From positions 372,001-436,000 of the forward strand of contig NZ_JSEP01000002.1 of NCBI RefSeq assembly GCF_001624695.1: a DNA stretch of 64,000 nucleotides, read 5' to 3'. Position numbers and translations under genes: made by a program. Of the stretch, positions 21,222 to 25,078 are shown in pieces (the first letter of the stretch is position 1; each line of letters opens with the position of its first letter). Source of the stretch: Labrenzia sp. OB1 (GTDB taxonomy: Bacteria > Pseudomonadota > Alphaproteobacteria > Rhizobiales > Stappiaceae). Below the pieces are notes generated by a model. That model was not told the DNA's origin and ran no database searches. It was given only the letters and a program-made list of their open reading frames with translations.

Positions 21222-21737
21222 TTACCGGCTTGATCCGCCCCATTCGCTGGTTGTCACGGAAAGCTCGGGAGGCGGGGTGGCCGCTGCAAAACCGAAGGTC
21301 GCCAGCCAGAGGCTCTGGGCGATACGTTCGGCAATCATGATGATTTCGTCGGCAAGATCAGGGACAAAAAGCTCCCGCACGACCGGACGGAAGACTGTCA
21401 GCCATTCGCCGTAGTCGGAACTGACCAGTTCCTTTTGCTTCATATGGGCCGGAACGGGCTTTCCCTTGTAGGCTCCGTTCTTCAAAAGAACGGATTGCCA
21501 GAAGCTCTCCATCTTCACGAGATGCTCGTCCCATTTGCCTTCCAGGCGGCGCGAGAAGATCTCTCCAAGGCGCAGATGCTCGCGGATACAGCCGTAAAAC
21601 GTTTGCACCATGACCCGAATGGAATCTTCGCTCACGCTTTCATAGCGCTGCAAACGATCACCCTCGCCGTCCACAGCGCGGTACCGGCGGGCGACGGGAG
21701 CGTCCTCGGATTTCGGACCGGAATTACGGGAAACCAT
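21222..21737 (-). CDS. Group III truncated hemoglobin
   Basis: 171 aa. The core (about 30-140) contains MVQTFYGCIREHLRLGEIF, WDEHLVKMESFWQSVLL and NGAYKGKPVPAHM; the last pattern supplies the probable proximal His of group III globins, and EWLTVF follows it. An Arg-rich N-terminus and a 20-aa tail extend the usual core. ATG 21737 was chosen because GGAG lies 6 bases before it. These globins are linked to NO or oxygen chemistry. It is divergent from nsrR, and an NsrR-like 23-bp operator lies directly upstream of its Shine-Dalgarno, so NO-dependent derepression is likely. Confidence 0.85.
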   Translation of the reverse strand: MVSRNSGPKSEDAPVARRYRAVDGEGDRLQRYESVSEDSIRVMVQTFYGCIREHLRLGEIFSRRLEGKWDEHLVKMESFWQSVLLKNGAYKGKPVPAHMKQKELVSSDYGEWLTVFRPVVRELFVPDLADEIIMIAERIAQSLWLATFGFAAATPPPELSVTTSEWGGSSR

Positions 21738-21748
21738 GATCATCTCCA

Positions 21749-21771
21749 AACATTCATTTTGAATGCATCTT
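21749..21771. promoter_or_regulatory. NsrR-type operator
   Basis: AACATTCATT (21749-21758), three bases, then AATGCATCTT (21762-21771). The known NsrR site is a 10-3-10 inverted repeat of AAGATGCATT; the right half matches exactly and the left half matches 8 of 10. It sits between the globin start and nsrR. A weaker half-site, AATGAATGTT, occurs at 21809-21818 just before nsrR and may serve autoregulation. Confidence 0.65.
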
Positions 21772-21832
21772 TTAAATCTCACATCGTCCCGTTAAAATCA
21801 ACATATCAAATGAATGTTTAGTGGGCCCCGAT

Positions 21833-22264
21833 ATGCGCCTCAGCCAGGCTAGCGACTTCGCCCTGAGAATCCTGATGGCGACCGACCAGTCAGACGATCC
21901 GCAAACGGTGGGAGGACTGACCGAACAGCTGGGCCTTGCCCACTCCCACGTCATGAAGATCGTCGCCCATCTGGCGAAAGGCGGCTATCTGGAGACCACT
22001 CGAGGTCGCGGCGGCGGCATAAGGCTGGCGAAAGAGCCGGCCACCATCCGCATCGGCGATGTCGTCCGGCTGATGGAACCGGATCTCGGCGTGGTAGCCT
22101 GCCTGAAGCCCGAACCGACAACCTGCGTCTTCCTGCCCCGCTGCGCCCTGAAGGGCGCCATGGCACGGGCCGCGGAGGCGTTTATCGACAGCCTCAACAC
22201 GCAGACGCTGGCAGGAATTTTGGTCGGAACGCAACCTGCCTCGTTTTCGCAGACGCAAGCCTAA
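21833..22264 (+). CDS. nsrR: NsrR-like Rrf2-family NO-sensing repressor
   Basis: 143 aa from ATG 21833. Rrf2 winged helix: MRLSQASDFALRILMAT, then LGLAHSHVMKIVAHLAKGGY and the wing TTRGRGGGIRLA. Cys90, Cys98 and Cys104, spaced as in NsrR, would ligate the Fe-S cluster that NO destroys. NsrR represses NO-detoxification genes; here the divergent globin is the evident target. An upstream in-frame GTG at 21821 is possible, but the family normally begins MRL. It overlaps the 3' end of the Crp/Fnr gene by 4 bp, convergently. Confidence 0.9.
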   Translation: MRLSQASDFALRILMATDQSDDPQTVGGLTEQLGLAHSHVMKIVAHLAKGGYLETTRGRGGGIRLAKEPATIRIGDVVRLMEPDLGVVACLKPEPTTCVFLPRCALKGAMARAAEAFIDSLNTQTLAGILVGTQPASFSQTQA

Positions 22265-22950
22265 AGTGTTGATGCCTGTTGCAGGAATTCCACCTGCTCC
22301 AGGCAGTAATAGCCGGAAATCCGGCTGATCGTGCCGGAGCGTTTCCAGTCGTTCAGCACGCGGCTGACATTTTCGCGCGCCGCCCCCGCCATATTGGCGA
22401 TATCGGCCTGGCTGAGCTTGTAGTGGATCAGCACCCTGCCATTCTCCAGAGGCTTGCCGAAGGTTTCCGAAAGCTGCAGCAGTGCCTGGGCGACACGGCC
22501 CGGCAAAGGCAGGAAGGAGCGCGCCGCCAGCACATCGTTGGCATGGCGCAGGCGTTTGCCGACGATCGACAGCATATGCCGGTAGACTGCGGGATTCTCA
22601 TCGGAAAATCTCTGGAAAGCGGCCTTGTCGATAAAGGCGACATGGGCCTCTTTCAGCGCAATCACCGTCGCCGAGCGCGGTCGGCCGTCAAGCAGCGCAA
22701 GCTCACCGACGAGATCGCCCGGGCCGAGGACGGCCAGAAGCTGCTCGTCGCCGTCAACCGACAGCAGGGAAACTTTCAGCGAGCCTTCGAGCACAGCGTA
22801 ACAGCCGTTTCCCGGGTCGCCGTTTTCGAACAGGATTGTGCCTGCGGGAATTTTCATCGCTCTGGCGAGACGCGACAGGCCGACCGCCAATTCCGGATCA
22901 AGCCCCTCCAGCGAAAAGCTGTTTTTCAAAAAGTCCTTGATTTCCGTCAC
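22261..22950 (-). CDS. Crp/Fnr-family transcriptional regulator
   Basis: 229 aa from GTG 22950, chosen because AGGGGGA lies 4-5 bases upstream; an ATG at 22983 would add 11 residues. The cyclic-nucleotide-binding fold covers about 10-130 (IPAGTILFENGDPGNGCYAV, GDLVGELALLDGRPRSATV). The helix-turn-helix reads LSQADIANMAGAARENVSRV. The recognition helix has Arg-Glu-x-x-x-Arg as in CRP rather than the Val-Glu of FNR, predicting TGTGA-type half-sites. There are no N-terminal cysteines for an FNR cluster. A matching palindrome lies 280 bp away at 23232-23247. Confidence 0.88.
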   Translation of the reverse strand: MTEIKDFLKNSFSLEGLDPELAVGLSRLARAMKIPAGTILFENGDPGNGCYAVLEGSLKVSLLSVDGDEQLLAVLGPGDLVGELALLDGRPRSATVIALKEAHVAFIDKAAFQRFSDENPAVYRHMLSIVGKRLRHANDVLAARSFLPLPGRVAQALLQLSETFGKPLENGRVLIHYKLSQADIANMAGAARENVSRVLNDWKRSGTISRISGYYCLEQVEFLQQASTL

Positions 22951-23231
22951 GCATTCCCCCTGCCAGCGAGTGTATCCGTTCATACCGTTCGGATATTAAA
23001 GCGCTTTGCATTCCTATTGAACCAATTGAGCGCAAAGCACTCTAGAGTACGGACCCTAACACAATGGTGTCGGGAACCTGCCACCGGACCCCGTTTCTCC
23101 CACCAAGAAAGCAGGCCGGCTTTTGCCTGCGGGCAGGTCCCAGACCGAAGACTGCCGGCAGCGCCGGTCGACACCGGACCGGCCTGGACCGGAAACCCCA
23201 CATCAATCATAAAATGCACTTACCGCGATCC
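22951..23231. other. Gene-free stretch between the Crp/Fnr gene and a CRP-type site
   Basis: Together with 23232-23638 this forms 688 bp without a protein gene. This part contains the Crp/Fnr upstream region and GC-rich dyads around 23110-23200 (for example GGTCGACACCGGACCGGCC), but no supported coding frame. The remainder holds the CRP-type site, the candidate small RNA and, from 23356 to 23638, sequence in which I see only short chance frames. Confidence 0.4.
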
Positions 23232-23247
23232 TGTGATGTTCATCACG
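23232..23247. promoter_or_regulatory. CRP-type binding site at about -41.5 of a putative promoter
   Basis: TGTGATGTTCATCACG is a near-perfect CRP-type dyad (TGTGA-N6-TCACR) with GTGATG/CATCAC arms. A -10-like TATATG lies at 23269-23274. A start near 23281 puts the site centre at -41.5, the class II activator position. No good -35 box is present, as expected for an activator-dependent promoter. The nearby Crp/Fnr protein is a natural candidate to bind here. Confidence 0.6.
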
Positions 23248-23280
23248 TGCAATCAAGAGAAATATCCCTATATGGTTAGT

Positions 23281-23355
23281 CATGGAAGCGGGGTCGCCCC
23301 TCCCCCTTTCAGACCTCCACGAAAAACGGCTCTGTTCCCCGCAGAGCCGTTTTTT
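23281..23355 (+). ncRNA. Candidate small regulatory RNA, about 75 nt
   Basis: The predicted transcript begins just after the TATATG box and ends at a strong terminator. It has a short 5' hairpin (GGGGTCGCCCC), an unpaired middle with C-rich anti-Shine-Dalgarno motifs (CTCCCCC, ACCTCC) and the terminator stem with a T-run. There is no sensible coding frame with a ribosome-binding site. This layout is that of trans-acting small RNAs in alphaproteobacteria. The alternative is that the hairpin only terminates the minus-strand kinase gene, whose stop lies 284 bp away. Confidence 0.5.
23322..23355 (+). terminator. Bidirectional Rho-independent terminator
   Basis: AAAAACGGCTCTG (23322-23334) pairs with CAGAGCCGTTTTT (23342-23354) without mismatch around a 7-base loop, giving T-runs on both strands. 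On the plus strand it would end the candidate small RNA; on the minus strand it could end the kinase gene transcript. Confidence 0.85.
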
Positions 23356-23638
23356 CGGTTCAGATCATAATTTCAGCGCCTTGTCCCGAGCTGTCTGCAT
23401 CCCTCCCGCAATCGAGCCGCCGCCAGACGTCTTTGATCCCCGGATGATGATGCACGGCACTCACATCTCGATCCGGAAGGCCTCAAGGCGGCGAAGTTCA
23501 TCGCGAAAACTGAGCGACGAGAGGGGCAGAGGCGGGCGACACGCGGTATATGCCTACAACCGCGCCATGGTGGGCAGAGCAGCCGATGGTGGGTTCTTCT
23601 CAAGATTTAAATGTGATCTCTTTTGAGCATTCCCGGAA

Positions 23639-24169
23639 CTAACTGCGGACAAGCCTAGCAGCAGGTTTTCCTTCGCTTTCGGCAATTTTTACGCAAATCT
23701 CTGAAGCGGCGGCCTCTGGAGAAGTGATGTTTTGAACCGTGCATCCAAGGGATCTGAGATTACGTTCAACGGCGCGGTAAGTCTTTATCGTAAGATCGCC
23801 GAGCGGTTCCCGCCCATCGCGAGCAGCCTCTCTTTCGACAATTGTTTCAACAGGCGCCCAGATCGTGAAGAGATGAACTGGAGTTTCCGGAGGAAGCCAT
23901 TGGCAAAATCTCGAGACTTTTTCCGCAGCATCAAAGACGTACTCGAAAATTATTCGCGGTGCTCCCATCCCCAGGTATGCCGACGTCAAAGAGGCCCCGG
24001 CGCGGTAGGTCGATCCGTGGCCAAGGTACTGACCGACATCGACTGGCGCGAACCATCGAATGGCATCGCCGGAAATATTTATCGTTCCTGGAAGCATCCT
24101 TGCCAGGTTAGCGGAAATGGTAGTTTTCCCCACTCCGGCCGGACCATTGATGATTACGACATGGGTCAA
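23639..24169 (-). CDS. P-loop kinase-like protein (AAA/NMP-kinase fold)
   Basis: 176 aa from TTG 24169, which has GGAAG 6 bases upstream; the open frame extends to 24271 but without a better start. Walker A reads INGPAGVGKTTIS right at the N-terminus, as in small-molecule and nucleotide kinases. EYVFDAAEK and HLFTIWAPVETIVEREAARD resemble the substrate and lid regions of chloramphenicol-phosphotransferase or gluconate-kinase-like folds. The substrate is unknown. Base composition is lower in GC and codon choice less biased than in the neighbours, suggesting acquisition by transfer. It follows the ChbG-like gene on the same strand with a gap of about 110 bp. Confidence 0.65.
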   Translation of the reverse strand: MTHVVIINGPAGVGKTTISANLARMLPGTINISGDAIRWFAPVDVGQYLGHGSTYRAGASLTSAYLGMGAPRIIFEYVFDAAEKVSRFCQWLPPETPVHLFTIWAPVETIVEREAARDGREPLGDLTIKTYRAVERNLRSLGCTVQNITSPEAAASEICVKIAESEGKPAARLVRS

Positions 24170-24280
24170 TTCGAACTTCCGTTCAATCCCGCGACTATCT
24201 GCATCATGCTGGGGGAACTTCGCCGCCACGACAAGGCAGTGAGCCAGATCAACGACGGGACAAGCAATCACCGGAGGGTG

Positions 24281-25078
24281 TTAGTTCAGGAAGACATCCT
24301 TCTGGTCCAGCGTCTGGAAGAAACGGTTGCTGGACAGAACTTCGTACTGGCATTCCCGTATGGCAATCTTCCTGCGCGGCTCGTCCCGCCTCAGACGATC
24401 ATCGGGCCGTCCGGGTATGGCGGCGACAAAACTGCGGTCCGTCATGCCGTCGAAATGATTGTGCAGAAGTTTATGCAGCTCTTCGGTGTCGCTCGTTTCC
24501 GGCAGGGGATCGGCCCTGGGCAGCATCTGAAGATTGCAGGACTTGGCAAGGTGATTGAGCCGCAAGCTCTTCAGACCCGGGCGCACCGGTGAAATCACCA
24601 GCGGCGGCACCTGGAAATCCGCATGATCGATGGCCTTGAAGACAATGCGCGCCAGTGCGGTTCTGGCCAGCAGGCCCTCACGCACCGCGACGAAGTCGGG
24701 TGGCCGCCCCATCAGGATGCTGTAGCGAACCAGTTGCGCATGGGCTTCCTCGAACAGCACTTCGTCCGGCAGCAATCTCACGAGCGCCCGGCGCTGGAGT
24801 TTTGCCCGGCTGAACATGCGCTCGCCATAGGCCTCCTGCATGCGCGCACTGACGGGAAACACCCGGTCGCCGCTGAAGGCCAGCGTCACGCCGAACAGCA
24901 CTTTCTTGCCGACCTTCTCCGCGGTTTCCTGAAGCGGGCGGAATTCCCGTGGCCAGAGTTCGCTGGCAACAATCGCGCCCACGGCGCTCAGGCGGCCCAT
25001 CTCGACCAGTTCGCGCAGCGCGCGATCGACCCCGAACGCAAGGCCGTAGTCCAAAGCTCCAAGTGTGATCCGCTTCAT
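24281..25078 (-). CDS. ChbG/HpnK-like (YdjC fold) protein lacking metal ligands
   Basis: 265 aa. The frame aligns with carbohydrate deacetylases of the ChbG/HpnK family: GALDYGLAFGVDRALRELVE at the start, SAVGAIVAS, FGVTLAFSG and PPDFVAVREGL. In active members these positions read ADDFG, GxHLxL and DGHxHxH. Here the first Asp and the histidines are gone (ALDYG, FGVTL, FVAVREG), so zinc-dependent deacetylation is unlikely. The gene follows the GT39 and GT2-GtrA genes on the same strand, a context in which intact ChbG/HpnK enzymes are found. A lipid-linked sugar-binding role is possible but unproven. Confidence 0.6.
   Translation of the reverse strand: MKRITLGALDYGLAFGVDRALRELVEMGRLSAVGAIVASELWPREFRPLQETAEKVGKKVLFGVTLAFSGDRVFPVSARMQEAYGERMFSRAKLQRRALVRLLPDEVLFEEAHAQLVRYSILMGRPPDFVAVREGLLARTALARIVFKAIDHADFQVPPLVISPVRPGLKSLRLNHLAKSCNLQMLPRADPLPETSDTEELHKLLHNHFDGMTDRSFVAAIPGRPDDRLRRDEPRRKIAIRECQYEVLSSNRFFQTLDQKDVFLN

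Follow-up and report, generated by a model that had tools for sequence, protein, structure and literature searches.

Genomic context of the RNA

The window analysed here is a stretch of 64,000 nucleotides from Labrenzia sp. OB1. Within it lies a predicted small RNA gene of about 75-77 nt (23281..23357, plus strand), whose start is placed by prediction and which is recognised by its fold and as the only good covariance-model match in its own genome (E 2.9e-28). It is divergent from a crp/fnr-type regulator gene (22261..22983, minus strand), and the interval between the two holds a CRP-type dyad, TGTGA-N6-TCACG (23232..23247, plus strand), which is a predicted activator site, and a predicted -10 element, TATATG (23269..23274, plus strand). 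Convergent with the RNA is a ydjC-like gene (24281..25078, minus strand) identified by Pfam (YdjC) and tblastn, and found near crp in all 39 related loci compared by tblastn. An open reading frame for an AAA-type ATPase (23639-24271, minus strand) separates the RNA from ydjC in the window; in relatives the two are mostly immediate neighbours. On the far side of the regulator gene are two genes regarded as neighbours only: one of the Rrf2 family (21821..22264, plus strand), which passes the superfamily cut-off and is NsrR-like but below the NsrR equivalog cut-off (89.4 vs 182 bits), and one resembling group III truncated haemoglobins (21222..21782, minus strand; PDB 2ig3, E 2.2e-12). Beyond these, and away from the RNA, a SAM-I/IV riboswitch (RF01725; 20216-20341, plus strand; 61.5 bits) is the only Rfam family to reach its cut-off in the window. 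The gene it controls is not obvious, and it also occurs near crp in two other loci (L042 and L072).

The regulator scores above cut-off for the Pfam families cNMP_binding, HTH_Crp_2 and Crp (PF00027, PF13545 and PF00325), which places it in the CRP/FNR superfamily. An internal GTG near 22950 may be where its translation begins, and named relatives of the protein, at 98% identity, come from Roseibium. It lies below every NCBIfam equivalog, that of the cAMP-activated CRP included (NF008732, 77.6 vs 266 bits). Its recognition helix, ARENVSRV (core RENVSR), can be set beside the RETVGR of CRP, with the pattern R-E-x-x-x-R, and bears out an earlier reading of the sequence in which a Crp/Fnr protein with a CRP-like helix was encoded next to the RNA. 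The closest solved structures are 3r6s and 4byy, which we take to be GlxR. In the ligand helix the regulator has Ala-Asn where the nearest solved relative has Thr-Asn, and cAMP as its ligand is thus uncertain. It contains only three cysteines, at positions 11, 61 and 227, and so has no FNR-type iron-sulphur motif. The protein encoded by this neighbouring crp gene is the presumed binder of the dyad, and CRP-type control of the RNA is likely.

The first-pass annotation had suggested a role in redox or NO defence, similar to that of FnrS, the Crp/Fnr-family-activated small RNA of Escherichia coli, under a redox-sensing Crp/Fnr protein. The NO-response genes on which this idea leaned do adjoin crp here, as they do in many Roseibium: of 39 loci, each examined over 3 kb, 23 have the NsrR-like gene near crp and 26 have the globin gene there. 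The neighbourhood is nevertheless confined to part of the genomes, as 13 of the 39 loci have the dyad and the RNA and show neither gene (one, L082, ends at a contig edge). The likeness to FnrS extends to predicted activation by a Crp/Fnr-family protein and predicted action at ribosome-binding sites. Against it, the dyad is of CRP type and does not correspond to the FNR/FixK half-site TTGAT-N4-ATCAA, the regulator lacks the FNR cysteines, and the predicted target is a porin, no redox target having surfaced in the part of the matches examined from a screen with one seed pattern. An FnrS-like function is improbable.

The predicted promoter

The dyad reads TGTGATGTTCATCACG at 23232-23247. Its centre, 23239.5, lies at -41.5 from the predicted +1 at 23281, the class II activator position claimed for it previously; this distance hangs on that predicted start, which would fall on the C or A of CATGGAAG. 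The -10 element lies 21 bases beyond the dyad, and one of the forms TATAT, TACAT or CATAT occurs at a fixed offset (35-41) in 53 of the 63 family genomes that carry the dyad. A promoter scan of 22950-23650 found no sigma-70 promoter with both hexamers, which agrees with the earlier remark that a -35 box is missing.

The motif TGTGAN6TCAC is expected 0.44 times per 64-kb window and was present in 33 of 100 shuffles. The dyad alone is therefore within chance expectation, and the case for the element is carried by its conservation. Among the 65 family genomes that have the RNA, the dyad is intact at the same place, the first model position, in 63; in the other two (G046 and G051) it is lost and the RNA retained. 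Measured in 27 Roseibium loci, the distance from dyad to RNA is 48-49, whereas in the 65 family genomes the dyad and the crp match are separated by anything between 24 and 249 bp (median 49). Thus, the dyad travels with the RNA, although the same site might serve crp too. Elsewhere in the Labrenzia genome TGTGAN6TCACG occurs at 10 sites, against 3 for the reversed control, and TGTGAYN4RTCACA at 6, against 0. No clear regulon emerged from these other sites, whose neighbours include cytochrome b561, a cold-shock gene and a T6SS gene.

Structure and covariation of the RNA

The region 23278-23357 folds much better than its shuffled versions (z -7.24), none of 200 shuffles being as good. It begins with a 5' hairpin (23283..23311, plus strand) with a C-rich apical region, recognised by its fold and by covariation across genera. 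An unpaired linker follows (23312..23319, plus strand; mean unpaired probability 0.97), which carries GACCTCCA and contains the predicted seed, GACCUCCA, identified by its complementarity to the Shine-Dalgarno regions of porin genes and flbT. The last element is an intrinsic-terminator hairpin (23322..23355, plus strand), in which AAAAACGGCTCTG (23322-23334) and CAGAGCCGTTTTT (23342-23354) form 13 perfect pairs around the loop TTCCCCG, together with a T-run. An automated terminator scan did not list this stem, on our reading because the T-run lies mostly inside it. The transcript is predicted to be bounded by this terminator at about 75 nt.

Both stems covary. In a 34-row alignment across genera, 18 of 22 stem pairs are changed on both sides: 8 of 9 in the 5' hairpin and 10 of 13 in the terminator stem, counts that are inflated by related rows. 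The covariation score for these rows is 0.441, compared with 0.167 in shuffled alignments (none of 500 reaching the observed value) and at most 0.128 in slid controls, with the reservation that the alignment was fitted to the structure. The 24 Roseibium-type rows show double changes in three terminator pairs only and none in the 5' hairpin. Independent folds of single sequences give the 5' hairpin and the terminator hairpin in nearly all cases, the exceptions among minimum free energy structures being L066 and L076.

A coding reading from the ATG at 23282 was also considered and rejected: the C-rich stretch varies in length among relatives, which puts the frame out of register, and the 114-aa open reading frame has no Pfam match.

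Distribution among relatives

By blastn the element was found in 41 of 101 relatives, 40 of these 41 (the Labrenzia genome counted) belonging to the same genus. Covariance models built first from 24 rows (R1) and then from 34 rows (R2) extended this to 68 of 87 family genomes at E <= 0.01. In 65 of the 68 the match adjoins crp, the other three being G013 and G446 (both weak) and G456 (a second, different RNA), and in all 65 the RNA is divergent from the crp-type gene. The latter is present in 84 of the 87 genomes; 19 of these 84 have no recognised RNA, namely G038, three members of genus g5 and 15 of genus g6. The dyad, TATATG, 5' hairpin and 13-bp terminator described in the first-pass annotation are thus all present in the sequence, and the terminator-bounded RNA with C-rich unpaired motifs that it proposed is conserved, with covariation, in 65 of 87 family genomes. 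It had named absence of the dyad and hairpin from close relatives as evidence against the gene, and had called for a search of related genomes for the pair with covariance in the stems; this search found them, in the numbers of genomes and doubly changed pairs given above.

In an order-wide search of 397 genomes, the only strong matches outside the family were three copies in G084, a member of another family, where they stand in tandem on one strand, each with its own CRP-type dyad. This array (L114, L115 and L116; G084:C242:5725-6228, minus strand) lies beside a cold-shock gene, about 870 bp from a crp gene. Among the weaker matches listed outside the family (weaker than E 1e-6), G259 has a dyad and a longer RNA, and G097 and G098, described below, have none.

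The array bears on the reading that there is no functional RNA here, the dyad serving to autoregulate crp and the hairpin being the terminator of the convergent ydjC. Such an arrangement would fit the closeness of the dyad to the crp match, the constant presence of ydjC and a stem that is A-rich before and T-rich after, and so could terminate in both directions. It is at odds with the fixed spacing between dyad and RNA as the spacing to crp varies, with the constant offset of the -10 element, with a 5' hairpin that covaries across genera and with three copies repeated on the same strand in G084. This reading is very improbable, and the existence of a small-RNA gene at the locus is close to certain.

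Several other loci were noted during the searches. Four genomes of the Stappia genus (G456, G457, G462 and G455; loci L180, L185, L186 and L187) contain a second, different hairpin RNA, away from crp, with a CRP-type dyad at the same spacing, which suggests that a CRP regulon of several small RNAs may exist. In genus g6, L191 (G449) and L192 (G443) have, at the corresponding place, a CRP-type dyad divergent from crp and lack the C-rich motifs; beside the dyad of L191 is a short terminator-bounded stretch, likewise without them, and these loci perhaps represent the same gene, whose RNA has changed completely. In genus g5, a dyad and a terminator are 270 bp apart in L188, L190 has a dyad and L189 has none. 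Two genomes from other families of the order (G097 and G098; L137 and L144) have a hairpin with a C-rich loop followed by a terminator, and no CRP dyad; these are candidate small RNAs, unrelated or distant.

Porins as predicted targets

Candidate targets were sought in seven genomes of the genus with the pattern TGGAGGTC-N2-9-ATG, and part of the matches was examined. In the Labrenzia genome (G000) the matches listed comprise 31 sites, against 8 for the reversed pattern. The genes recurring between genomes in the stretches examined encode Porin_2 (PF02530), FlbT (PF07378) and an EF-hand protein; a lipoprotein, an acetyltransferase-like and a cupin-like protein, all three named by eye, also recur. 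The porin, chosen after a screen that yielded about six recurring genes, was the only one to hold up across genera.

The extent of pairing was taken as the longest Watson-Crick run between the RNA without its terminator and the porin start region; duplex energies were left unused because the long RNA arms swamp them. Among the porins examined, a run of at least 8 nt (8-12 nt) was found in 13 of 22 genomes: 12 nt in G014, 11 and 12 in G043, 11 in G050, G047, G349 and G057, 10 in G462 and G459, 9 in G018 and G052, and 8 in G000, G002 and G035. The other nine fall below 8 nt, with 7 in G045, G055, G056 and G439, 6 in G036, G060 and G440, and 5 in G046 and G051; of these, G045 and G055 fall short by one mismatch (in stretches of 13 and 11 nt). 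The shuffled controls for this comparison were single-base rather than dinucleotide shuffles.

In G014 (Roseibium), where three clustered porins have runs of 12, 12 and 9, the 12-nt porin run is the only one of that length among 322 sampled genes. In G047 (Stappia), two porins with 11 nt are joint top, 3 of 309 sampled genes reaching 11. Both samples were drawn with a simple gene finder from 400 kb per genome, in stretches chosen to include porins. The Labrenzia genome has an 8-nt run to two porins, and 5 of 67 sampled genes have at least 8, so the porin is unremarkable there; seed-bearing genes were over-represented in this sample, and the five include a gene call with a wrong start next to a porin. 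The two porins are tandem genes with near-identical leaders, each with the 8-nt seed match (G000:C7:67869 and 69456; L227), and other porins of this genome (on C11 and C13) have no seed match.

When RNAs and porins of eleven representatives were exchanged, their own partners scored 95, compared with 84.5 +- 3.5 for swapped partners (P 0.0035); a second set of eleven gave 94 against 81.5 +- 3.4 (P 0.00045), both P values being calculated without regard to phylogeny. In the window the seed reads GACCUCCA; other Roseibium have CUGACCUCC(A/U) or UUCUGACCUCC, and Stappia has UCCUGACCUCG. The seed occupies the linker of the Roseibium RNAs and, in those of Stappia, the hairpin loop. It is mostly unpaired, at 0.58-0.97 compared with 0.33-0.51 for the whole RNA, in 11 genomes all chosen for runs of at least 8. 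The porin leader contains TTGGAGGTCAGATATG. At the base that adjoins GAGG, Stappia has C in the porins and G in the RNA, and Roseibium has G in the porins and C in the RNA.

Other observations weigh on both sides. The two genomes that have lost the dyad, G046 and G051, also have only a 5-nt porin run, which is counted for the porin target; porin sites GGAGGTCAGG also occur in G053, where no such RNA was found, which is counted against it. Porin paralogues without a site are common: 17 of 20 further porins, two more of the Labrenzia genome included, have runs below 8. Overall, the complementarity makes the porins a good lead as targets of the RNA.

A C-rich RNA might instead act generally, as a CRP-driven anti-Shine-Dalgarno RNA that binds many targets weakly and has no circuit specific to porins, since C-rich loops pair with any G-rich site. 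C-rich stretches do occur in three unpaired regions, genes such as flbT and that of the EF-hand protein recur alongside the porin in the screen, and 9 of the 22 genomes lack a long porin run. The longest porin matches, however, extend past the GGAGG core into UCAG(GA), which on our reading, judged by the 16S tail, is not Shine-Dalgarno sequence. Porins also top two independent gene samples, and an RNA pairs better with its own porin than with a swapped one. We regard general action as unlikely, though it deserves to be kept in mind beside the dedicated repression of porins that we favour.

The gene flbT is a lead in Roseibium. Its predicted pairing runs are 9-12 nt in G000, G002, G018, G035 and G043, with a 9-nt run to the seed in the Labrenzia genome (G000), and below 8 in the other 17 of 22 genomes. 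The EF-hand gene was set aside: it recurs in 5 of 7 genomes of the Roseibium genus, and its relatives in Stappia, at 35-41% identity, have no match. The ribosome-binding site of crp itself has a 7-nt run, AGGGGGA, which is matched or exceeded in 5 to 12 of the 67 sampled genes, and is conceivable as a target.

Relation to known RNAs and regulators

Searched against Rfam at E up to 5, the RNA region gave best matches at chance level (RefA9 on the other strand, RsaE and ar14), and the CyaR model gave no match. The closest parallel in function is nonetheless CyaR (RyeE) of enterobacteria, which depends on CRP and Hfq and whose pairing with the ompX Shine-Dalgarno sequence hinders attachment of the ribosome (PMC11795201). 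Like CyaR, the present RNA has a conserved unpaired seed and, at a predicted activating position, a CRP-type site that is kept in 63 of 65 genomes. It may also have a Shine-Dalgarno target in the mRNA of an outer-membrane protein, the complementary run being 8-12 nt in 13 of 22 genomes and below 8 nt in the other 9. Unlike CyaR, it has a different seed, is encoded beside its presumed activator and would act on Porin_2 instead of OmpX.

In appearance it is closer to alpha-r14 / NfeR1 of rhizobia, which has unpaired anti-Shine-Dalgarno motifs and diverged stems, NfeR1 being part of a feedback loop with its own regulator (PMC10746234 and PMC3927594). The present RNA is likewise alphaproteobacterial and shares both features. 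However, alpha-r14 has three hairpins, each with CCUCCUCCC, whereas here there are two hairpins and a linker, and this 9-mer is absent from 23281-23357. The score against the alpha-r14 model (RF02344) is 17.7 bits, below the cut-off of 58.8 (E 0.24). The RNA would work like CyaR and looks like alpha-r14 / NfeR1, and by the tests made it is a member of neither. With RsaE/RoxS of Firmicutes, of which RoxS is described as NO-regulated (PMC4409812), it shares the character of a short C-rich small RNA; the model score (RF01820) is at chance level, at 20.8 bits against a cut-off of 79 (E 0.23).

The regulator can be compared with Clr of Sinorhizobium meliloti, also a CRP-like protein of an alphaproteobacterium, for which PMC10127613 gives the core site GTNNCNNNNGNNAC and contacts at Thr140/Thr141. 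Here the site is TGTGA-N6-TCAC and the ligand helix has Ala-Asn, the putative positional match to the two Clr residues being drawn from the alignment with the nearest solved relative.

Proposed mechanism and significance

The best account of these observations, and in our judgement a fairly probable one, is that this is a CRP-activated small RNA that represses a subset of porins by pairing with their Shine-Dalgarno sequences. In this scheme the dyad at -41.5 would be bound by the product of the neighbouring CRP-family gene, which, to judge by the geometry, would recruit RNA polymerase to a promoter that has no -35 box. The 13-bp terminator would halt transcription once about 75 nt had been made, giving a transcript that, according to the computed fold and covariation, would adopt the 5' hairpin, short C-rich linker and terminator hairpin. 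Its unpaired seed would then pair with certain Porin_2 mRNAs, and in some Roseibium also with the flbT mRNA, at the ribosome-binding site, as the computed complementarity suggests, and this pairing would presumably block translation. Overall, certain porins, and perhaps flagellin control too, would be lowered while the CRP-type protein is active.

It is attractive to go further and to see here the alphaproteobacteria's own CyaR, an RNA that travels with the gene for its activator and whose seed has moved between positions, the pairing with porins being kept by matched changes. This extension is possible, though we would put it somewhat short of an even chance. In the literature consulted, mostly outside subscription journals, no paper was found that is devoted to small RNAs from Roseibium, Labrenzia or Stappia.

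If these proposals are correct, the enterobacterial arrangement of CRP, small RNA and porin would also exist in marine alphaproteobacteria, with an unrelated RNA and an unrelated regulator, and would present a case of convergent circuit design. The Crp/Fnr protein would gain a named regulon across the whole family. Moreover, genomes in which the RNA is kept, the dyad lost, the seed moved or copies added would form a natural series in which the co-evolution of a seed and its targets could be followed.
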